A stretch of DNA of 64,000 bases from Oceanococcus sp. HetDA_MAG_MS8. Lineage in GTDB: Bacteria > Pseudomonadota > Gammaproteobacteria > Nevskiales > Oceanococcaceae. This document shows, in pieces, positions 21,677 through 63,349 of the stretch; within the stretch, counting starts at the first letter, position 1, and each line of letters starts with the position of its first letter. Both the position numbers and the translations under genes were made by a program. The notes under the pieces are model-generated. The model did not search any database, was not told the origin of the DNA, and saw nothing but the letters and a program-made list of their open reading frames with translations. The DNA is taken from the NCBI GenBank assembly GCA_019192445.1, contig JAHCMK010000004.1:62001-126000 (forward strand), in the 5' to 3' direction.

Positions 21677-21745
21677 GCATGGCTTAGGCCTGGCCACCCA
21701 AGGAACGAAACCTGCAGCGGCTCGCTCTTTGTGTGTGTTTCAGGC

Positions 21746-22894
21746 ATGGACGACCCGGCCATCACCTTGGACCCCAGCGCCAAAGGGCTGTTCGACGTAC
21801 TCCAGGATTCGGTCATTGTCACCGACACCCATGGACGTATTGTTTACTGGAACGGGGGCTCTGAACGCGCCTTTGGCTATACCTGCGCCGAAGCCTTAGG
21901 TCAGAGCCTCAAGCTCATCATGCCTACCGAACATCACTGCGCCTTTGCCCGCGGCTTGGAAAACCACAACCGCACGGGTGTTCCCAAGATGGCGGGCACA
22001 ACCTTCAGCCTGAACGGTCGTCGTCGCAATGGCGAAGAGTTCCCGGTACAAGTCGCACTCGCACGCTGGTTTGTCGGTTCTACGCCCTTGTTCTGCGGCC
22101 TTATTCAGGACATTAGCGACCTATGCGCCAGCCCAAGGGATGCAAACCGCATTAACCGGCTACGCCTTTACCAAAATCACACCGCTGAGGCGCAGTGCAG
22201 CCAGTCTCGCAAAGCAATACAGCGCCCCTTGACGCAGCTTATGCAGTGTTTGAACACCACCGACCCTGATGTACAGCAACCGCTGCAAGCCTACCCAGCG
22301 TTGCAGGAACAATGGACATCGGCAAAACGAGAGGCGGGCGACATCGACCAGATCCTTCACGCGGTCGAAGAATTGCACCGCGTAGGGCTGGGTCATCTTG
22401 ATGGACACTTGTCTTTGGATGACTCGGTGCAACAGGCTGTCTCTGTGTTGCGTGAACCCATTCGCAAGAGCGATGCTCGCATTCACGCCTCCAACCTGCC
22501 CCGCAGCTGCTTCGGGCTGGAAGACATGTGCCTAGTGTGGACGCATCTGCTGCGCAACGTACTGGAGCACAGTCACCCCCAGCGCGCTCCCATGGCAACC
22601 ATCAGCGGCCGAGTCGTCGATGGGTTTTGCGAGCTACGTTGCCAGGACAATGGCATCGGCATGGACTTAGAGCAGCTCACCCACGCTACAGAGCTCTTCT
22701 ACAGCGGCCACCAGCGCAGCCCTACTCAACGCGGCCTGGGGCTTAGTGTCGTTCGTCGCGTCTGCGAGTCCTTGGGCGGCTCGGTGAGCTTGCACTCAGT
22801 CCCCGGCGAAGGCACTACCGTGAGCTTGCTCATCCCCGAGTATCAAGACTGCAGCCAGTGCTCAATCACAAACTGCGCGGACCGCATTCATTAG
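21746..22894 (+). CDS. PAS-domain protein with histidine-kinase ATPase domain, atypical H-box
   Basis: A 382-residue predicted cytosolic sensor. A PAS domain (about residues 14-125) has DSVIVTDTHGRIVYWNGGSE and FGYTCAEALGQ. The C-terminal HATPase_c domain has the N box HLLRNVLEHS, G1 box CQDNGIGMD and G2 box RGLGLSVVRRVCESLGG. At the expected phospho-acceptor site the sequence is RKAIQRPL: Lys 156 stands where HDLKSPI-type kinases have His. It may therefore not autophosphorylate there, or the dimerisation domain is divergent. I chose the ATG at 21746; GTG codons just upstream are possible. Its 3' end converges on pldA. Confidence 0.78.
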   Translation: MDDPAITLDPSAKGLFDVLQDSVIVTDTHGRIVYWNGGSERAFGYTCAEALGQSLKLIMPTEHHCAFARGLENHNRTGVPKMAGTTFSLNGRRRNGEEFPVQVALARWFVGSTPLFCGLIQDISDLCASPRDANRINRLRLYQNHTAEAQCSQSRKAIQRPLTQLMQCLNTTDPDVQQPLQAYPALQEQWTSAKREAGDIDQILHAVEELHRVGLGHLDGHLSLDDSVQQAVSVLREPIRKSDARIHASNLPRSCFGLEDMCLVWTHLLRNVLEHSHPQRAPMATISGRVVDGFCELRCQDNGIGMDLEQLTHATELFYSGHQRSPTQRGLGLSVVRRVCESLGGSVSLHSVPGEGTTVSLLIPEYQDCSQCSITNCADRIH

Positions 22895-22914: not shown

Positions 22915-23934
22915 TCAAAGCCAATCGGTAATTGCCACCCCAAAACCCAACCGGTTGTGGTGCTGGTCGTAATCGATGAGGCTTTCCCCATAGCCCGCGA
23001 AGTACTGCACATAACCGCGAGCGCGGCCTGATAGAGGAAAACTCCAGTTCAGCTCTAAACTGCCCCGATTGTCGCTACGCGCATTATTCCTCCACACCGC
23101 CGAGTAGGTCTTTGAGCCCAGCTTGCGCGCAAAAATCACCTCAAACTGACCCACGAACCGTTCAATGTTGGGGTTTTCGTCCCCGCGCGGGTCATCTGGG
23201 CTGGTTTTCTCCGGGTCAGGAATCCGAACCCAGGGCCGAACGATGAGGGTTCGCCCCTGCACTTCCCAAATGAAGCTGGCGGCCACGCGATTCCAGCTGC
23301 GCGAGTCTGGTAAATCCCGACCATTGGACTGATGCACCAGGCCCAATGTCATCGCACTCAGTCTTGAGCCCAACACATTCCAGTCCACCGGAATACTCAG
23401 AAAAAGTTCGGGCTCATGATTTGTTTCGCGAAAGGGTCGCGACCGCGCCGCGTCGTAGGCCTGCCAGAAAGACTGCGCCGTATAGGCCACATTGAGACTG
23501 GCGCGTGAACCCAATACCTGCTGCCATACGGGAAACCGCACGCTCAACTGGAATTTAATCTCGGCCCGGTCGGTGAAGGCATCTCCCCCGGTGCTCGCCT
23601 GATTGGGGCTGTCGTGATACGTAAACGGCATCACATAATTTGGCCTGTAGGGCGTGAGCACGAAAGGCATCCACTGCGTAGCCCGTTCCACCTGCACCCG
23701 CCGCTCCAAAGGCGAAGGCCCTTGTGACTCTACGCCCTCCGGCGCGCTCTTAGCCTCGGCACAGATCGCGCGCAAATTTGCGACAGCGGTCTCACCTGGC
23801 GCGGATAGCAGAGCTTCACGCAAGCAGCTCTCGAAGGCATCCGTGCGCAGCGGTGGAAGGTCTTGCGCCCATGACAGGCGTGAAGCCGCCAGCAAAACGA
23901 CCATCGATACGCTGCGTAGGAGAAAGTGACTCAT
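22915..23934 (-). CDS. pldA: Outer-membrane phospholipase A1 (OMPLA)
   Basis: An outer-membrane enzyme that hydrolyses acyl esters of phospholipids that reach the outer leaflet. The 339-residue precursor begins MSHFLLRSVSMVVLLAASRL with a signal peptide ending near SWAQ. The active-site region LGLVHQSNGRDLPDSRSWNR has the catalytic His and Ser spaced by one residue, with Asn further on, and WRNNARSDNRGSLELNWSFP is a typical barrel segment. The barrel is preceded by about 90 residues containing two cysteines, longer than in E. coli. The start at 23934 is chosen for the signal peptide; the frame is open to 24006. Confidence 0.88.
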   Translation of the reverse strand: MSHFLLRSVSMVVLLAASRLSWAQDLPPLRTDAFESCLREALLSAPGETAVANLRAICAEAKSAPEGVESQGPSPLERRVQVERATQWMPFVLTPYRPNYVMPFTYHDSPNQASTGGDAFTDRAEIKFQLSVRFPVWQQVLGSRASLNVAYTAQSFWQAYDAARSRPFRETNHEPELFLSIPVDWNVLGSRLSAMTLGLVHQSNGRDLPDSRSWNRVAASFIWEVQGRTLIVRPWVRIPDPEKTSPDDPRGDENPNIERFVGQFEVIFARKLGSKTYSAVWRNNARSDNRGSLELNWSFPLSGRARGYVQYFAGYGESLIDYDQHHNRLGFGVAITDWL

Positions 23935-24161
23935 GGCACCCAAAGAGAAACAAGGTTTCGCAAGGCCTAAGCCCCAAGAAGTCGCAGCATCTGTGATGCC
24001 ACACAAATGGCAGTCCTAGCTATCCCTGCGTTCCGACCAAAGCCAAAGAGAGCAATGAGCGCGGAAGACGATGAACGCGCAGCCCCGCTGTAATCCGCGG
24101 ATGGCAACACGCAATACTCTGGAGTCCATGACGCATGCGCGCGGATGGCCAATCGGGAAAA

Positions 24162-24237
24162 TGGTGCCGGCTGAGGGATTCGAACCCCCGACCCCCTGAT
24201 TACAAATCAGGTGCACTACCAGCTGTGCTAAGCCGGC
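24162..24237 (-). tRNA. tRNA-Thr (anticodon TGT)
   Basis: A complete 76-base cloverleaf on the minus strand with acceptor GCCGGCT, encoded CCA, and anticodon arm CCTGA-TTTGTAA-TCAGG giving TGT. The T arm is GTTCGAATC. It stands alone between pldA and the signalling cassette. Confidence 0.97.
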
Positions 24238-24248
24238 ACTCGGCTCGC

Positions 24249-24254
24249 ATTGTA
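24249..24254 (-). promoter_or_regulatory. -10 element of the tRNA-Thr promoter
   Basis: TACAAT on the minus strand ends 11 bases before the mature tRNA 5' end and is followed by the GC-rich GCGAGCC discriminator. The -35 is not clear. Confidence 0.5.
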
Positions 24255-24520
24255 CCAATTTCTCCGGCAAAACTATCGATAACAGGCCGAATACCCGACT
24301 CATAAGGCATCCCCCACTGCGCGACACAATCCGATATATAAGGCGGTTAAAGCCGTTTGCTAGCCGTGTCGTCACTAGGCGCATGCGCGTTTTAGGGCTG
24401 TGTCCGGTGTACCATCGCAGCGTAAGCACGACATGGGTGGCCACAGCACGGGTGCACTGTTCTCAGCTTTGTCGGCGTGGATAGCTGGCATCGACCACTT
24501 GCTCTGGGGGTGAGCTTTAG

Positions 24521-25303
24521 GTGAAAAAATCTATCGAGGCGAACGTGCGCCCCAACAGAGCGCGAGCATTAGGGGTTCTTCAACAGCGTCTTATGCAGCG
24601 GCAGCCGCGTCTGGATCATGCTGCGTGGGCTGTACGCATGCGGCCGCATGCCGCAGTCAGCGGCGACCTTGTCATGATTTGGGAGGGCGCCGGAAACGGC
24701 TCTTTAAATGCCTTCATCGGTGATGTTGAAGGGCATGGGGCTGATGCCGGCTTTGTCGCCGTAGCCCTGATGGCTGCTCTGCACAGCCAAAACCTGGGCA
24801 ATTGCGCAGAGGGGCTTAAGGATCTCAACACCCTGTTATACGAAGACAGTGCGCATATGCCGCTGTGTACGGGGCTGCTGCTCAACCTTAGAAAGGACGG
24901 TTTTCTGTGTGTGGCTAGTGCTGGGCATATCCCGCTTCTGTGGATGCACGGCGATGGAACTGTCGATACCTTACCCGCTGAACACGGCCCACCTCTAGGA
25001 GCCTTTAGGGATGTGCCAGAGCTCAGCTGCACGCCAGCACAGATGCAACCTGGTGACCGACTTCTTTTGCTCACTGATGGATTGCTAGAGCGACGCCACA
25101 CGGGCTCGAGCACATTGGTGCTCCCCAACCCGGTGCGCGAGGCCGTTTTTCGCGCCGCAGGCACGGACTCTCTTCAGGAAGATGTGGACACCTTATGGTC
25201 AATGCTCACAGCCATGGTTGGGCCCTCGACCCCAGAAGATGATCAAACGATGCTCCTCATCGAGTACTCTGGTTCTGTGGCAGCCAATGGAGCGTCGGAA
25301 TGA
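24521..25303 (+). CDS. SpoIIE/RsbU-type PP2C serine phosphatase
   Basis: A 260-residue stand-alone phosphatase domain. All metal-binding signatures of the SpoIIE family are present in order: SGDLVMIWEG, IGDVEGHGADAGFVA, SAGHIPLLW, LLLLTDGLLE and PEDDQTMLLI. There is no sensory or membrane domain, so control must come from partner proteins. Such phosphatases usually dephosphorylate anti-sigma-factor antagonists or similar proteins. The start is GTG with GGGGTGAG upstream. The stop overlaps the next gene by four bases (ATGA). The roughly 280 bases before it contain tRNA-Thr's promoter region but no gene. Confidence 0.87.
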   Translation: MKKSIEANVRPNRARALGVLQQRLMQRQPRLDHAAWAVRMRPHAAVSGDLVMIWEGAGNGSLNAFIGDVEGHGADAGFVAVALMAALHSQNLGNCAEGLKDLNTLLYEDSAHMPLCTGLLLNLRKDGFLCVASAGHIPLLWMHGDGTVDTLPAEHGPPLGAFRDVPELSCTPAQMQPGDRLLLLTDGLLERRHTGSSTLVLPNPVREAVFRAAGTDSLQEDVDTLWSMLTAMVGPSTPEDDQTMLLIEYSGSVAANGASE

Positions 25304-25836
25304 CAGATGGAACTGTAGTTGAGTTAACAGACCTCAGCCCGCCGCCCATCGAGCGCGATGCCTTTTTCCGCACCGTCATTCGGAATATCACGGGTGCTTT
25401 GCAAGACACCATTGGTGAAGAAGAAGCCAAAGGCTTTGTCTCCGTCGTAGGCGCCGCGATGGGAGACGATATCAATAGCCGCTATCGCCACTCCTTAGGA
25501 GCTGCCTATCTAGACCAAACACAGGTTGCTGCGGTGTTGGTTGATCTTAAGCGTCGTATTGGCGGTGAATTTACAAATACAGCATCAACTCCAAGAGCCA
25601 TCGAGTTTCATAACAGTCGCTGCCCTTTCGGCATGAGCGTTCTTGGACGGCCTTCGCTGTGCATGATGACCTCCAATGTATTCGGCCGAATAGCCGCAGA
25701 GAATCTTGGCTACGCTCGAGTAGAGTTGGCGCGAACGATCGCACGCGGGGATAACCACTGCCGTGTCAAGGTGCACCTCCAACCCCATGCAGATGCTGCG
25801 CCGGGCGTCGGCCGGGAGTACTTTGCCGTTGGCTAA
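25300..25836 (+). CDS. Small protein with a probable methanogen output domain 1 (MetOD1-like)
   Basis: A 178-residue soluble protein. The C-terminal part has FHNSRCPFGMSVLGRPSLCM followed by TSNVFGRIAAENLGYARVEL and ARGDNHCRVKVHL. These conserved Cys and CPFG positions resemble the MetOD1 domain, a signal-output domain of unknown biochemistry found mainly next to signalling proteins. The assignment is from memory of the pattern and is moderate. It overlaps the phosphatase by four bases and is followed eight bases later by the kinase, so all three are made together. Conserved Cys may bind metal or a cofactor. Confidence 0.6.
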   Translation: MTDGTVVELTDLSPPPIERDAFFRTVIRNITGALQDTIGEEEAKGFVSVVGAAMGDDINSRYRHSLGAAYLDQTQVAAVLVDLKRRIGGEFTNTASTPRAIEFHNSRCPFGMSVLGRPSLCMMTSNVFGRIAAENLGYARVELARTIARGDNHCRVKVHLQPHADAAPGVGREYFAVG

Positions 25837-25844
25837 CGTTGGGT

Positions 25845-26957
25845 ATGTCCGCAGCTAAGCTTCAGCAACGGCTGCTGGAGGCATCACCATGGGCAGGGTT
25901 GTATGTGAGCGGTGATGGCCAAATCCACTCTGGCAACATGGCCGCCAAACAGTTTTTCGATTTGGGGGCTGCTGGCCAAGCTAAGCTCCAAGGGCTGATT
26001 GCTAAGGCCACGACCATGGAGGATGCGGCGACTGTTATCCAGCGCTTACTCAGGCAGGCAAGCGGTATGACGGAGGGCGTTCGCACAAAACTCCAACTCA
26101 CCGACAAAACCGGCCGACTCCACAAGTGCAGTCTGCATCTCAGAATGGTCGAACCGGGCAACGCTCGAGCACCCGCGTTATTGGTGTGTTACCTACTTCC
26201 CTATGAGCCCCGTGAGCAGGGCTTCCATTCTTTGCACGAAGAAGTCAAAACGAACCTTGTTCAACAGCGCGACAGATTCATACGTGAGCAGTTTGCTCAT
26301 CGCGATATATTGTTCGCGGTTATTCACGATCTCAAATCACCGATCGTCAATATTTCGATGCTGGCCGACATTGCCGAGGAACAACTGGGCCAGGACCAGG
26401 ATGTGGCTGGGTGTTTGGATTCACTGAAGTTACTGCAGAGCTCCGCGGCGGCAGCGAAGAAAATTCTCGGCGGGCTGACCGAGTTCTACCGTTTAGGTTT
26501 GGATATCTCTCATCCAGCAGAAGTAGACCTTAAGGTGCTGCTACAGGACATCAAGACTGAGGTTCTTAGCCGGCATCCTCATATGAGCATCACGCTCCCG
26601 GACTCTGCCCCCATCCTAAGAACCGAGGAGGCGATATTGCGCTCAGTATTGACCAACATTATGGAGAATGCGGCAAAACACCATCATCGCCCCCAAGGAC
26701 AAATTACGGTTGGTGTGACACTGGAGCACAATGAGATCATCCTTAGGATAGATGATGATGGCCCTGGCATCGCCGCAGAGTTGCGGGACCAAGTGTTTGC
26801 ACCGTTCTACTCTTCGGCAACTCAGCCGAGCACGGGGATGGGTTTAGCGATTTGTCGCCGCATGGTGCAGCATATTGGAGGAAGAATTGAACTGGGCTCA
26901 CCACAGGCGGGGCATGGTGCTCGGTTCACTATTTACTGGCCTGCTGCAGCAAACTAA
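25845..26957 (+). CDS. Sensor histidine kinase with PAS-like N-terminus
   Basis: A 370-residue cytosolic kinase. Residues 1-120 look like a divergent PAS domain (LLEASPWAGLYVSGDGQIHS). After a coiled segment comes the H box AVIHDLKSPIVNIS with phospho-acceptor His 161. The ATP-binding domain follows with N box VLTNIMENAAKHHH, G1 IDDDGPGIA and G2 GMGLAICRRMVQHIGG. The ATG at 25845 lies eight bases after the preceding stop; an in-frame TTG at 25839 is less likely. It is the third gene of the cassette, and the receiver gene converges on it from the other side. Confidence 0.87.
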   Translation: MSAAKLQQRLLEASPWAGLYVSGDGQIHSGNMAAKQFFDLGAAGQAKLQGLIAKATTMEDAATVIQRLLRQASGMTEGVRTKLQLTDKTGRLHKCSLHLRMVEPGNARAPALLVCYLLPYEPREQGFHSLHEEVKTNLVQQRDRFIREQFAHRDILFAVIHDLKSPIVNISMLADIAEEQLGQDQDVAGCLDSLKLLQSSAAAAKKILGGLTEFYRLGLDISHPAEVDLKVLLQDIKTEVLSRHPHMSITLPDSAPILRTEEAILRSVLTNIMENAAKHHHRPQGQITVGVTLEHNEIILRIDDDGPGIAAELRDQVFAPFYSSATQPSTGMGLAICRRMVQHIGGRIELGSPQAGHGARFTIYWPAAAN

Positions 26958-26977
26958 CCACGCCTACTAGGGTGAGC

Positions 26978-27562
26978 TTAGCTCTTAGGTCGCTCTGCGA
27001 CTGAGCCCCACTCCCATTGCGAATCCGCAATTGTTTCTTCCTGAGTGATGCTATGCAGCGCTTCGGTCAAAGAACGTGCGACCACGTCGCGTTGATCTTT
27101 TGACTGCAGCATTGTCACTGCATCGACTATCGATTTTCGAGCGCGGTCTAAACGCGAAATCAGATCATATGCGCGCACTGCAGAATAGGTGGTCGCGTAT
27201 AAGCGCTCAGGAGTCATTTGGGCTTTATCAATGTAGCCATCTAGGTCGAACTGCTGTGTCGCTTCGGATCGCGGAGCAACATCGGGATTCCCCGTCAGCA
27301 AAACCACGCGCGTTCGCCATATGCGCCCCTCCTGCCGAATACGCTCAATGAGGTCCAAGCCCGCAGTCGGAGACTCCATCACAACGTCCACGAATGCCAG
27401 TGCGATATCTGAGTCCCGATGCAGTATTGCCTCAGCCTCGCTAGCAGTAGCCGCCCAAAGCACATCTGCCGCCAGTCCGCGATAGGCAAATTTACGCAGA
27501 CAAGCCCTGACCACACCCCAGGTGTCTTCGCTGTCGTCTGCGACGAGTACCTTCCAAGCCAA
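26978..27562 (-). CDS. Response regulator receiver protein without DNA-binding domain
   Basis: A 194-residue protein with a receiver domain (about residues 1-130): the acidic pair in VLVADDSED, phospho-acceptor Asp in LAFVDVVME, Thr in VVLLTGNP and Lys in GYIDKAQM. Residues 131-194 form a helical extension, LYATTYSAVRAYDLISRLDR, resembling the start of DUF3369 regulators but with no output domain. The only start in frame is TTG, with AGGGG about six bases upstream. It converges on the histidine kinase and is its likely partner. Confidence 0.82.
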   Translation of the reverse strand: MAWKVLVADDSEDTWGVVRACLRKFAYRGLAADVLWAATASEAEAILHRDSDIALAFVDVVMESPTAGLDLIERIRQEGRIWRTRVVLLTGNPDVAPRSEATQQFDLDGYIDKAQMTPERLYATTYSAVRAYDLISRLDRARKSIVDAVTMLQSKDQRDVVARSLTEALHSITQEETIADSQWEWGSVAERPKS

Positions 27563-27729
27563 CTCAAACCCCTAAGCGGGCGCGTTTGTAAACACACCTC
27601 ATGATTTCCTTACACCGCTGGGAGTGTGCGCAGGCAGTCCATCCAAACTGCACACGAATACGGTCGATGCCTCAGACATCATCCCATCCCCATCGGATCG
27701 AGCCGCCACTAGGCACGCTCCAGACTAGA

Positions 27730-28482
27730 TTACGGGGTTGCCGGCCTGGGGTCTATACCGCCGTATTCGTCATTTTGGTGACGGACCCACGCACTGAGCC
27801 CAAGCAACACTAGATTTGGAGCGGCATTCAGCCCGCTGGAAGGCTCCATGAGTTGCGCTAAAAATGTTGACCCTCCGCCAGTAAGCCAAATCGGGTGCGG
27901 CTGGGCTTGAGCCTGCGCCCGCTGGATTGCGCCAAGGGCACATTGCATCGCGCCGGACAGTAGAGCGGGCTCGGTATCAGTCGCCAGATCTCGGATTCCT
28001 TGTTCCAAATCTGCAGGTGGCGGCAAGGCCGTGCGCGGGCCTAAGGCCTCCAATAAGGCTTGCGGGCCGGGTGCAATCCACCCACCCAGGTGCTGCCCGC
28101 CTGCGTCGCAGAGATCAAAAGTCATTGCCGTGCCAATACTGATCACCCCGCAAGCATCACCCTGCTGAGCATAAGCCGCTGCCAACGCCAGCCAGCGATC
28201 AACGCCCCATTTGCGATGATCGGAATACGCGCAGCGAATGCCTAAGCCTTCTTTGGGAGTGCGTACCCACTGGGTGTGGGGAGGGAGAACCCGGCGCAGC
28301 TGCCGCTCTCGGTCTGGGGAGGCAACACTGCTGATAACAACGCGCTCACCTGGGGCGAGTCGCTCAGCCCAAGCTGAGAGCTGTGCATAGTCCACCACTT
28401 CTACGTCACCAATGTCACCCTGGCCGGACCAATGACTGGCCTTCAGACGCGTATTCCCCGCATCTAGTAACCAAGCCCTCAT
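27730..28482 (-). CDS. coaX: Type III pantothenate kinase
   Basis: Phosphorylates pantothenate in the first step of coenzyme A synthesis; the CoaX type needs a monovalent cation and resists CoA feedback. The 250-residue protein begins WLLDAGNTRLKASHW, the ASKHA phosphate-binding motif, followed by KWGVDRWLALAAAY and the GTAMTFDL and GGWIAPG motifs. The ATG overlaps the stop of the upstream thioesterase gene by four bases. Confidence 0.94.
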   Translation of the reverse strand: MRAWLLDAGNTRLKASHWSGQGDIGDVEVVDYAQLSAWAERLAPGERVVISSVASPDRERQLRRVLPPHTQWVRTPKEGLGIRCAYSDHRKWGVDRWLALAAAYAQQGDACGVISIGTAMTFDLCDAGGQHLGGWIAPGPQALLEALGPRTALPPPADLEQGIRDLATDTEPALLSGAMQCALGAIQRAQAQAQPHPIWLTGGGSTFLAQLMEPSSGLNAAPNLVLLGLSAWVRHQNDEYGGIDPRPATP

Positions 28483-60853: not shown

Positions 60854-63349
60854 CTAGAACTGATACTTCAGGAAGAAGCCAAGGTTGTCGCGGTCCGCGT
60901 AGTTGTTATCACGCCCTGCCCCGGTAAACATGTTGTACGCCAGCGTGAAGGAATAACCACGCTCATGCTGGACTTCCAGTAGCAAGTTGAGCTGTTTCCG
61001 GCCCTCGACAAAGTTGGCCGCCGGCCCCGGAGCATTGCCGTGGATGTCGTGCTGCCAGATAAACAGAGGCTGGACACTGATCCCCGGCAAGACCGATTCG
61101 TAACGAATCCGACCGACCACCCGGTAACCCCAGGAGAAGGCATCAGCAAATGCACTACGACGTTCCTGAAACGGATTAAAGCGCAATCCATCGGGGCCGA
61201 CTGTGCAGGTTGGATTGCTTGAGCAGGCCAACTGTGAACCATCCGCACCGCTGCCGTCGGCACCTGCACTGGCGTGCGTTGTAGCCGTGTAGGGCCCTTC
61301 AATCTGCAGCTCATGGAAATCGGGCATGTTCAGCACATGGGTGGCCGCAAGCTCGTACAGCAGAATGACCTGGTCGGCGAAAATCCAGTTTTCCGAGGCC
61401 CCCAGAACCCGAGTGGCCCCCAGGTTGTACTGATTCACCTGACCGTCAATCCAGCCCTGGATATAGCTGTTCGGCGCAGTTTCCCCGATCGTGCCATGCC
61501 GGTAAGGCTCGATAAAACTCGGGAATGACCGGGCCGAACCCGGTAGCGAGCCCACGATCAGATTGATCGTATCGGTGTATGGATTCTCACCCCTCGCATC
61601 AACGAAGTCATTGCTGCCATAGGTCACGATGTTTCCTGATTCGTCATACCCGCGACTCGCCTGAGAACCGGCACAACCAATGCTCTGGTCATGGCAGCGA
61701 GTGAGGGTTGGCCCCAGCGCCGCAAAGGCCAGGTCGGCAATCGCCACCTGCAGCGGCAAATTGGGTCGGTACGCGACCTCACCTTGGAAGGAGTATTCCC
61801 CGAAGGTGGTATTAAAGCTCACCCCGTACATCTGAATGTCTTCCGGGTACTGCAACTGAACCTTGATCGAGTCCAGTGCCAGGGTGTCGTTGAGCGGCTC
61901 GTTGGGGTTGCCCACTAGCAGATTGGTCAGACCGGTCAGCGCCGTGACCGGGTTGGTTGCGCCGAAGTCCGTAAGCAATACTCCCGGGTTCGTCACTGCC
62001 AGCTGGGCGACCTCCAGAGCCAGAGCGGTCTGTGCTTGCAGCGAACTGGTCAGCGGCAGATTCGGGCATGCCTGCAAAAACTCAAAGGTGTTCGTTGCAT
62101 CAATTCCTGCGGTATTGCCTTCGCGACGCGCACAGCTGGCGTCAGCTGCATAGAAACTCGCATACGGCAATTTGGAATGATAGTTCATGAAGTACAGACC
62201 AAACTCCGTACCGTTATTCAGGTCATAGAAGTAACGCTTCAATGCGACACCAAACTGGCCACTGTCTCTGGCTCGTCTTTCTGGCAGCAGTTCACCCGTT
62301 GGAGACAAGGGCGTAATCAAAGCCAATGGGTTGTCCACGAAGGACGCGACGCCATCCGGGTCTTCATGGCCACTGAATGTCAGGTTGACGTTGTCGCGCA
62401 GGTTGTCACTACCCACATCAATGAACGACATAAAGGAGCCCGGCGTGGGTATCTCGATGGGCTCCCATTCGTACTGGTAGTACACCTCAAGATCGATGTC
62501 CCAGAATGCCTGGGTACTTGCCCGGATCATTCCGACAGGCAGGAAAAGCTCTTCCAGCAAGCCGAAGCCAAGGCGATACAGGCTGTTGGCATTCACGGGC
62601 TGGGCCTGATTCACGCTGTTAACGACGGCCACTGTGCTCTGCCCCCAGTTAACCGTTTGCCGTCCCACCCGGAAAATGAGGTCACGGTCACCAAAAAATG
62701 GTGTCGTCCCGTAGAAATTGAAGTCCAGCAGGTCATACCGCAACCCCGCCTGTTCGGCTGTCCGATGATCGCGATCTTCCCGAACAACCTCACCGGGACC
62801 ATAGACCTGATCAAAATAGCGGTTTGAGGTCTGCGTGTTCCCTGTCGTGCCAGTGCGGTCGACATTCTCTGCCGTGACCCGGTTTGGGTGAAACTCCTCG
62901 AAGTCGTAGTTGACGTAGTCGTATATCCCGATTCCGCGTGCGAAGAAGCCGAAGTTTCCCCATTCAATCGTGATGTCGTTGTTGATCTTCAACGGGGCCT
63001 GGGTGATGTCGCCGCGGTCGTAGTTCAGGTTGCCGTCATCCAGGTTGACGGAGGCGACACCTGGCGCACGCGCCAACTGCTGAGCCGGGTGAATCTGCTC
63101 GCGGTGCACGCCCTGACAGTACTGGTATGGGCCAGAACACAGATCAGGGTCCAGGTTGAGCTTGCCCACGAGAAAGTCCTTGCGGTTCTCGATTCGCCAG
63201 CTGTACCCGAAGGTCCCGGTGTTATTAAGCACCCCGGAGAAGTTCTCACCGAAGGCCGAAAAATCAAACTGAATCGCCTGAGCCCCGAAACTGAGGGCAA
63301 CCAGGGTCACTCCGGACGCAGCCCGGCTTAGCAAGTTGGTAGCACGCAT
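60854..63349 (-). CDS. DUF1302 family outer-membrane protein
   Basis: An 831-residue predicted beta-barrel of the DUF1302 family. A signal peptide VTLVALSFGAQA is followed by FDFSAFGENFSGVLNNTGTF and SWRIENRKDFLVGKLN, typical of the family start. RVGRQTVNWGQSTVAVVNSV is the most conserved DUF1302 stretch. The C-terminus LGFFLKYQF ends in Phe, as outer-membrane proteins do. GGGAG precedes the ATG by nine bases. It lies 23 bases after the DUF1329 gene. Such pairs occur in lipid, steroid or hydrocarbon transport loci. Confidence 0.87.
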   Translation of the reverse strand: MRATNLLSRAASGVTLVALSFGAQAIQFDFSAFGENFSGVLNNTGTFGYSWRIENRKDFLVGKLNLDPDLCSGPYQYCQGVHREQIHPAQQLARAPGVASVNLDDGNLNYDRGDITQAPLKINNDITIEWGNFGFFARGIGIYDYVNYDFEEFHPNRVTAENVDRTGTTGNTQTSNRYFDQVYGPGEVVREDRDHRTAEQAGLRYDLLDFNFYGTTPFFGDRDLIFRVGRQTVNWGQSTVAVVNSVNQAQPVNANSLYRLGFGLLEELFLPVGMIRASTQAFWDIDLEVYYQYEWEPIEIPTPGSFMSFIDVGSDNLRDNVNLTFSGHEDPDGVASFVDNPLALITPLSPTGELLPERRARDSGQFGVALKRYFYDLNNGTEFGLYFMNYHSKLPYASFYAADASCARREGNTAGIDATNTFEFLQACPNLPLTSSLQAQTALALEVAQLAVTNPGVLLTDFGATNPVTALTGLTNLLVGNPNEPLNDTLALDSIKVQLQYPEDIQMYGVSFNTTFGEYSFQGEVAYRPNLPLQVAIADLAFAALGPTLTRCHDQSIGCAGSQASRGYDESGNIVTYGSNDFVDARGENPYTDTINLIVGSLPGSARSFPSFIEPYRHGTIGETAPNSYIQGWIDGQVNQYNLGATRVLGASENWIFADQVILLYELAATHVLNMPDFHELQIEGPYTATTHASAGADGSGADGSQLACSSNPTCTVGPDGLRFNPFQERRSAFADAFSWGYRVVGRIRYESVLPGISVQPLFIWQHDIHGNAPGPAANFVEGRKQLNLLLEVQHERGYSFTLAYNMFTGAGRDNNYADRDNLGFFLKYQF

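Follow-up and report, generated by a model that had tools for sequence, protein, structure and literature searches.

HsbR is a protein in which a receiver is joined to a PP2C phosphatase, and in the phenol sensors PoxR, DmpR and MopR a V4R sensor domain is followed by an AAA+ domain. According to the parts of PMC12329717 and PMC7108781 on which we draw, H-NOX holds zinc through three cysteines and one histidine or glutamine, oxidation of the cysteines makes H-NOX inhibit the kinase HnoK, and the hnox and hnok genes of Caulobacter overlap. The MetOD1 domain (PF18546) has been described from archaea: in the passages of Galperin et al. 2018 used here (PMC5847659) it is distributed in Methanobacteria and Methanomicrobia, stands alone or behind receivers (REC-MetOD1 in methanogens), is related to V4R, HNOB and ATC hydrolase by sequence-based inference and may share a related enzymatic activity, and an excerpt of PMC11784639 reports in vitro phosphotransfer from a kinase to a Methanosarcina acetivorans REC-MetOD1 protein. 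Here we describe a four-gene signalling cassette with a bacterial MetOD1 protein, found in Oceanococcus sp. HetDA_MAG_MS8 (Gammaproteobacteria) within the window, i.e., the whole stretch of 64,000 nucleotides of contig JAHCMK010000004.1 that was analysed (positions 62,001 to 126,000). MetOD1 and the PAS-histidine kinase encoded directly downstream of it are a conserved pair in bacteria, and bacterial MetOD1 is most likely, as judged from sequences and a structure model, an input (sensor) domain. The features of the cassette are the following (lengths in amino acids, aa):

24521-25303, plus strand: stand-alone SpoIIE-type PP2C phosphatase, 260 aa (Pfam SpoIIE, 1.3e-32; metal-binding motifs intact)
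25300-25836, plus strand: MetOD1 (PF18546) protein, 178 aa, predicted V4R/H-NOX-fold sensor (Pfam, 2.8e-21; cysteine invariance; model)
25621-25761, plus strand: presumed metal or redox site, codons of Cys108 (25621-25623), Cys121 (25660-25662) and Cys154 (25759-25761), from their invariance; metal binding putative
25839-26957, plus strand: histidine kinase, 372 aa, with an N-terminal PAS domain (about 25869-26252), an H-box at 26325 and a HATPase domain (Pfam; PAS profile; PAS-fold model)
26978-27562, minus strand: convergent single-domain receiver, 194 aa, with a C-terminal tail ending near W-x-W-G-S (Pfam, 6.4e-10; a twin lies on contig C3 of the same genome)

The original prediction, made from the letters of the window, had named these four genes as SpoIIE, MetOD1, kinase and convergent receiver; all four are in the list of open reading frames (ORFs) at these coordinates, and Pfam returned SpoIIE, MetOD1, HATPase_c and Response_reg for them. 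The proposed check of the 25300-25836 product against PF18546 gave 76.5 bits with a cut-off of 23.8, and the kinase matched HATPase_c at 3.8e-24 with no HisKA match in Pfam. Of the two translational links that had been claimed, the ATGA overlap between the PP2C and MetOD1 genes (25300-25303) stands, and the eight-base gap before the kinase gene holds for an ATG start at 25845 only, since the TTG at 25839, from which the 372 aa are counted, leaves two bases. The motifs SGD, GDxxGHG, TDG and DDQT were read from the phosphatase, an H-box (HDLKSP at residue 163) with an N box and a G1 box from the kinase, and D9/D10, D59, T90 and K113 from the receiver; kinase and receiver thus carry the two-component hallmarks, and, with these residues intact, the three proteins look functional. 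The SpoIIE match spans phosphatase residues 60-249 and no second Pfam family was matched, so that no sensor domain was recognised in this protein, as had been noted before. Promoter-like sites of the sigma-70 type numbered 0, with 2.5 expected from shuffles. The combination of genes is indeed unusual, and ORFs and Pfam bear out that STAS, anti-sigma and DNA-binding proteins are absent from the cassette.

When genome_contigs was scanned with the 178-aa protein, 420 relatives came up, and the analysis covers the 80 best of them (not a random sample; 52-60% identity in the best segment). Most of the 80 loci fall in 11 phylum groups, and the phyla include Pseudomonadota, Cyanobacteriota, Myxococcota, Planctomycetota, Acidobacteriota, Verrucomicrobiota, Actinomycetota, Gemmatimonadota and Nitrospirota. 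With a profile built from the N-terminal PAS domains of the genes downstream of MetOD1, the window kinase being left out, a PAS domain was found to start no more than 300 base pairs (bp) downstream of the MetOD1 stop codon in 77 of the 80 loci; in two of the three misses the contig ends shortly after MetOD1 (107 bases in L011, 17 in L036), and the third, L065, is a fusion. In the stand-alone loci from a search of genomes of the same class, the PAS-kinase lies downstream in 17 of 18 (L128 and L129 among them are L004 and L078 again), with L138 narrowly missing at E 0.0022. Two checks are independent, or nearly so, of the way in which the profile was built: the window kinase matches it with 42.9 bits (E 2.7e-11), and of the 24 kinases encoded in the 80 loci elsewhere than behind MetOD1, only one has the partner PAS, this one (L009) ending directly before MetOD1. 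Catalytic types vary among the 78 downstream genes scanned (HisKA in 46, HWE in 8; the 78 include some spurious frames, as neighbours were called greedily from ORFs, and 57 of 61 upstream and second-downstream candidates entered the family scan), and therefore the PAS domain, not the catalytic half, is the common part. A model of the kinase PAS has an ordinary PAS fold (mean predicted local distance difference test score, pLDDT, 83.1), and HNOBA, the H-NOX-associated PAS considered as its identity, was neither among the families listed for the 78 downstream genes (25 of 26) nor seen in the 50 PDB rows listed, which is not enough to exclude it. The link from MetOD1 to the kinase is well supported, and we consider it probable that MetOD1 controls its kinase. 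The open-licence literature yielded nothing on a bacterial MetOD1-kinase pair.

Recurrence across genera, which had been proposed as support for a system, is thus strong for MetOD1 and kinase alone; the four-gene set does not recur in the 80 loci or in 29 loci of the class and, by the refuting condition named in the original prediction, does not stand as a conserved system. A SpoIIE profile built for the purpose found no SpoIIE gene other than the window's beside MetOD1 in these 80 and 29 loci, the flanks searched reaching up to 6 kilobases (kb) in the former and mostly 1.5 kb in the latter, many of them short or ending early. The SpoIIE gene is not part of the conserved pair. In Nitrospira moscoviensis a HATPase-SpoIIE protein is encoded 4.6 kb upstream of MetOD1, in a same-strand array (L032:266-8448) that also includes MetOD1 with its kinase and two large kinase-like proteins.

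The position of MetOD1 in fused proteins fits an input domain, because it stands before a kinase, before an enhancer-binding regulator, or joined to a helix-turn-helix (HTH) domain. In L065, from a metagenome-assembled genome (MAG) of Actinomycetota, a single 496-aa frame contains MetOD1 (58-188), HisKA (276-340) and HATPase (383-490), and no PAS was matched in it. The class search found MetOD1 in 31 of 369 genomes with 33 matches, which are the window's own, 19 stand-alone ones, including one truncated at a contig end, and 13 fusion frames of 521-631 aa forming a single BLAST cluster (L158-L170). In these fusions MetOD1 forms the N-terminal part, with the AAA+ domain of a sigma-54 activator and a Fis-type HTH behind it, as seen in the printed sequences and, for two of them, in Pfam. 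In G055 (L119:5756-6397) a winged helix precedes a short MetOD1 match. The original prediction had called MetOD1 an output domain; for the bacterial proteins we reject this label, given the fusions, the fold and the constant kinase partner. As a separate observation, the cysteines of the G055 HTH protein are spaced C-x12-C-x20-C-x7-C, a pattern reminiscent of SufR-type Fe-S repressors.

An AlphaFold2 model of the window MetOD1 (75 sequences) has a pLDDT of 89.4. In the PDB it is closest in fold to TRAPP Bet3 (Z up to 13.7) and, at Z about 13, to the phenol sensors PoxR, DmpR and MopR, followed by the V4R protein MJ1460 (Z 9.4) and then by H-NOX, whose entry 2kil shares the fold at a middling Z of 8.5 with a root-mean-square deviation of 3.4 over 127 residues; Foldseek, too, returned the Bet3 and phenol-sensor groups. 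At the level of sequence, a PDB search with the MetOD1 profile gave no credible relative (best E 0.042, ribosomal L12), V4R, with which the fold is shared, was not among the Pfam matches of the window MetOD1 at E up to 1, HNOB was not among them either, and the resemblance to ATC_hydrolase is weak (E 0.035, 15.3 bits vs a cut-off of 28.1). The domain occurs once in its own genome and has the cluster of three conserved cysteines of its family: Cys108, Cys121 and Cys154 are invariant in 81/81 sequences of a first set and in all 112 rows of a larger alignment (99 without a sigma-54 part, including the window, L065 and at least two doubles, and 13 sigma-54 fusions). The mean column identity of the MetOD1 alignment is 51%. 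No histidine is conserved in the 112 rows, the sole column with more than 30% His being position 159, where Tyr is commoner, and heme binding of the H-NOX kind is therefore unlikely. The window copy stands alone, the bacterial fusions are with kinase, AAA+ and HTH domains rather than with receivers, and none of the MetOD1 frames in the loci scanned matched a receiver profile, itself a narrow one.

A possible ligand is suggested by the neighbours of the sigma-54 branch. Nine of the 13 loci have a carbonic-anhydrase-like gene close to the MetOD1 regulator. Two of the products were compared with the PDB: that of L158 is closest to a CS2 hydrolase (1.1e-46); for that of L163, beta-carbonic anhydrases rank first (9.1e-42) and COS and CS2 hydrolases lower. 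A relaxed -24/-12 site, with up to three mismatches allowed, lies near the start of seven of these nine genes, the summed expectation from letter shuffles of the same stretches being about 0.6; two of the seven sites fall inside the called frame, and the frame starts are uncertain. These observations suggest reactive sulfur or another thiophilic small molecule as the ligand of the sigma-54 branch, and for the kinase branch they are only a hint of a reactive-sulfur ligand. Nothing on a carbonyl sulfide hydrolase together with sigma-54 was found in the open-licence literature.

The cassette lies in an interval that varies between relatives, with these borders:

24162-24237, minus strand: tRNA-Thr(TGT), left border, adjoining coaX also in G001, G002 and G003
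27730-28482, minus strand: coaX, type III pantothenate kinase-like (named by eye), right border

The two border genes are neighbours in all three relatives (regions L193, L194 and L195), and the spacing between them is 3492 bp in the window (24238-27729), 38 bp in G002, 37 bp in G003 and 810 bp in G001, where it holds a different frame of 214 aa, outer-membrane-protein-like by eye. None of the three regions compared contains a match to the window PP2C, MetOD1 or receiver. Since nothing but the four genes occupies this interval, and three relatives do not have them there, they look like one block, gained here or lost from the relatives, which is in line with the earlier proposal that they are a unit. 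Only short imperfect repeats were seen at the borders. To the right of coaX the gene order of the window is kept in G001; to the left, the phospholipase gene has no match there. MetOD1 is present in 2 of 61 neighbourhood genomes, its own included, the other being the HTH type of G055. In a tree of 94 MetOD1 rows the window protein sits on a long branch beside that of a Gemmatimonadetes MAG (98/87), away from gammaproteobacteria, and this placement may be taken as a hint of lateral transfer and no more. A 142-aa ORF over the tRNA gene (24016-24444, minus strand) has no Pfam match and is most likely a spurious read-through. A further PAS histidine kinase (21731-22894; best NCBIfam match FixL, below the cut-off) lies 1.6 kb before the cassette, from which it is separated by a phospholipase A1 gene (22915-24006) and the tRNA-Thr gene.

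Among the 369 class genomes and 61 relatives' genomes searched, nothing is closer to the window PP2C than a twin of 37% identity on contig C3 of its own genome, which likewise converges with a single-domain receiver; the two receivers are 32% identical, and both tails end near W-x-W-G-S. The twin pair lies beside this feature:

L118:7909-12776, contig C3: partner-switch-like module of STAS and HATPase_c_2 proteins, a second PP2C and a GGDEF-like frame (by eye)

Here the STAS protein has 112 aa, the N-terminal part of the second PP2C appears by eye to be membrane-bound, and no Pfam family was matched by the GGDEF-like frame. G001 (L123) has STAS, a GGDEF-like frame (by eye), the second PP2C and HATPase in the same order, with no match to the stand-alone PP2C/receiver pair within the 13 kb taken. 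STAS is matched six times in the Oceanococcus genome: four matches belong to long frames (567-592 aa), and none lies in the window stretch of its contig C4. Of the parts of an RsbU/HsbR-type partner switch, the cassette has the SpoIIE phosphatase with its catalytic motifs; a STAS antagonist and a HATPase anti-sigma kinase are absent beside its PP2C and both present at C3, and receiver and PP2C are separate genes on opposite strands, not an HsbR-type fusion. The comparison with C3 makes the PP2C/receiver pair look like an add-on to a partner switch that is used twice and that in the window brackets MetOD1 and the kinase. The original prediction had noted that the layout is not a classical partner-switching one: this is right for the cassette itself, but because a STAS/HATPase_c_2 module lies next to the twin pair elsewhere in the genome, partner switching becomes a likely output and should not be dismissed.

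We propose that the cassette is a laterally variable, three-layer signal-response module. A cytosolic MetOD1 of the V4R/H-NOX fold would sense a small reactive molecule through its three-cysteine site (metal, Fe-S or redox) or through a pocket, and would act in trans on the PAS-histidine kinase whose gene is translated next, as H-NOX controls HnoK; the ligand and the direction of this control are what we infer. The kinase would phosphorylate the convergent receiver, a step that we favour somewhat. Receiver and stand-alone PP2C may then act jointly as a split HsbR/RsbU-type regulator, for which the chances seem evenly balanced, and the PP2C would remove phosphate from a STAS antagonist, for which the 112-aa protein of C3 is the likeliest candidate; that a STAS protein is the target at all we rate at about an even chance. 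In favour of this output layer, the three PDB matches of the PP2C are Rv1364c and two sequences labelled probable two-component response regulator. The outline as a whole is our leading explanation, at even odds of being right, and it is less likely that every step holds at once.

Several observations weigh against this proposal. The count of 77 is partly by construction, because the PAS profile came from these same downstream genes, and the 80 loci are the best of 420. The partner PAS is also present in a second kinase of L173, 3 kb from MetOD1 (8.6e-17), and weakly, at E 3e-5 to 4e-4, in five kinases without a known MetOD1 from loci fetched for the receiver (L106, L108, L115, L116 and L117), and the PAS of the window kinase is divergent (13-31% identity). 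The top fold matches include TRAPP Bet3, which is no sensor, and Z up to about 13 can reflect a common helical arrangement, as the tool warns; the sequence-based relation of MetOD1 to V4R and HNOB in the consulted part of PMC5847659 agrees with the fold matches. Archaeal MetOD1 behind receivers, one of which is phosphorylated, fits an output role there, and the archaeal domain may differ in role from the bacterial one. The best match of the twin receiver in the regions compared is the window receiver (1.7e-26 vs 6.5e-16), but the window receiver itself scores higher against receivers from other genomes (up to 97.3 bits) than against its twin (89.5); it has five matches in its own genome, itself included, and it might serve the 21731-22894 kinase instead. 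The C3 STAS protein as the substrate of the PP2C is a proposal only.

Part of this evidence would be accommodated if MetOD1 and the kinase were a true pair, signalling to a distant regulator, and the PP2C and receiver were unrelated passengers at the coaX/tRNA-Thr site. The other loci examined lack a SpoIIE gene beside MetOD1, the different gene of G001 indicates that the site accepts unrelated DNA, the receiver is on the opposite strand and is by score not closest to its twin; yet the PP2C gene overlaps that of MetOD1 by ATGA, and the convergent PP2C and receiver recur on C3, so that they have stayed together here with the MetOD1-kinase pair between them. We regard this explanation as rather unlikely. 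A neighbourhood of four signalling genes without any joint function would agree with the set having been found only once, but it is very improbable in view of the overlapping and closely spaced genes, of the pair being kept in 77 of 80 loci and of the interval that the four genes alone fill and that lacks them in three relatives.

MetOD1 might also be an enzyme or output module with C-S bond chemistry of the ATC-hydrolase kind, placed under control of the kinase or the phosphatase. The Pfam name and the archaeal REC fusions speak for it, as do the weak ATC_hydrolase similarity, the related activity suggested by Galperin et al. and the phosphotransfer to the M. acetivorans protein (both as given in the parts of PMC5847659 and PMC11784639 cited above), and a conservation that is high for a sensor. 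However, N-terminal to AAA+/HTH and HisKA/HATPase the bacterial domain has an input position, its fold matches include phenol sensors and H-NOX, and no MetOD1 frame was matched by the narrow receiver profile, and we hold an enzyme or output module to be quite improbable.

The sensor reading, by which MetOD1 instructs a kinase, has a wider form that we put forward tentatively: a heme-less cousin of H-NOX and its dedicated PAS-kinase would constitute an unrecognised sensor-kinase family in at least 11 phyla, the neighbours of the sigma-54 sister branch hinting at reactive sulfur or another small thiophilic molecule as what the three-cysteine domain senses, and the pair would here be wired into a STAS switch through a split receiver-PP2C. 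Named a methanogen output domain in family databases, MetOD1 appears in bacteria to serve as an input domain that is widely shared and has its own kinase. If this is true, a family without known function acquires a role, a fold and a test, cyanobacteria, planctomycetes, proteobacteria and others possess a heme-less counterpart of H-NOX/HnoK, and the cassette shows how a two-component sensor can plug into Ser/Thr partner switching.

Among the described systems, PoxR, DmpR and MopR share with MetOD1 the fold (Z about 13) and, in the sigma-54 branch, the domain order; they differ from the window protein, which stands alone, works with a kinase and does not have V4R among its Pfam matches. The methanogen proteins, as far as the cited part of PMC5847659 describes them, share the Pfam family and the cysteine cluster and differ in that the archaeal copies stand alone or behind receivers. 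Compared with HsbR and SiaABC, the window receiver and PP2C are separate proteins, with STAS and HATPase_c_2 on another contig; the likeness lies in a phosphatase acting on a STAS-type antagonist, as in SiaABC and, in the section of PMC6482189 used, in HsbR/HsbA, the C3 module having STAS, HATPase_c_2 and a second PP2C. The likeness to H-NOX/HnoK, in so far as the parts of the H-NOX articles cited above describe that system, is that of a small cytosolic sensor encoded beside its kinase (for MetOD1, a parallel drawn from reading the genes, with adjacency in 77 of 80 loci), of a common fold class (Z 8.5) and of three cysteines, whereas MetOD1 has no conserved heme histidine and has one of its cysteines elsewhere in the chain: of the spacings between Cys139, Cys164 and Cys172 of Shewanella oneidensis H-NOX and between residues 108, 121 and 154 of MetOD1, only the 33 residues of 139-172 and 121-154 agree. 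Given the three-cysteine redox switch of H-NOX and the overlapping hnox and hnok genes, MetOD1 and its kinase are therefore best read, by analogy, as a heme-less parallel of H-NOX/HnoK.

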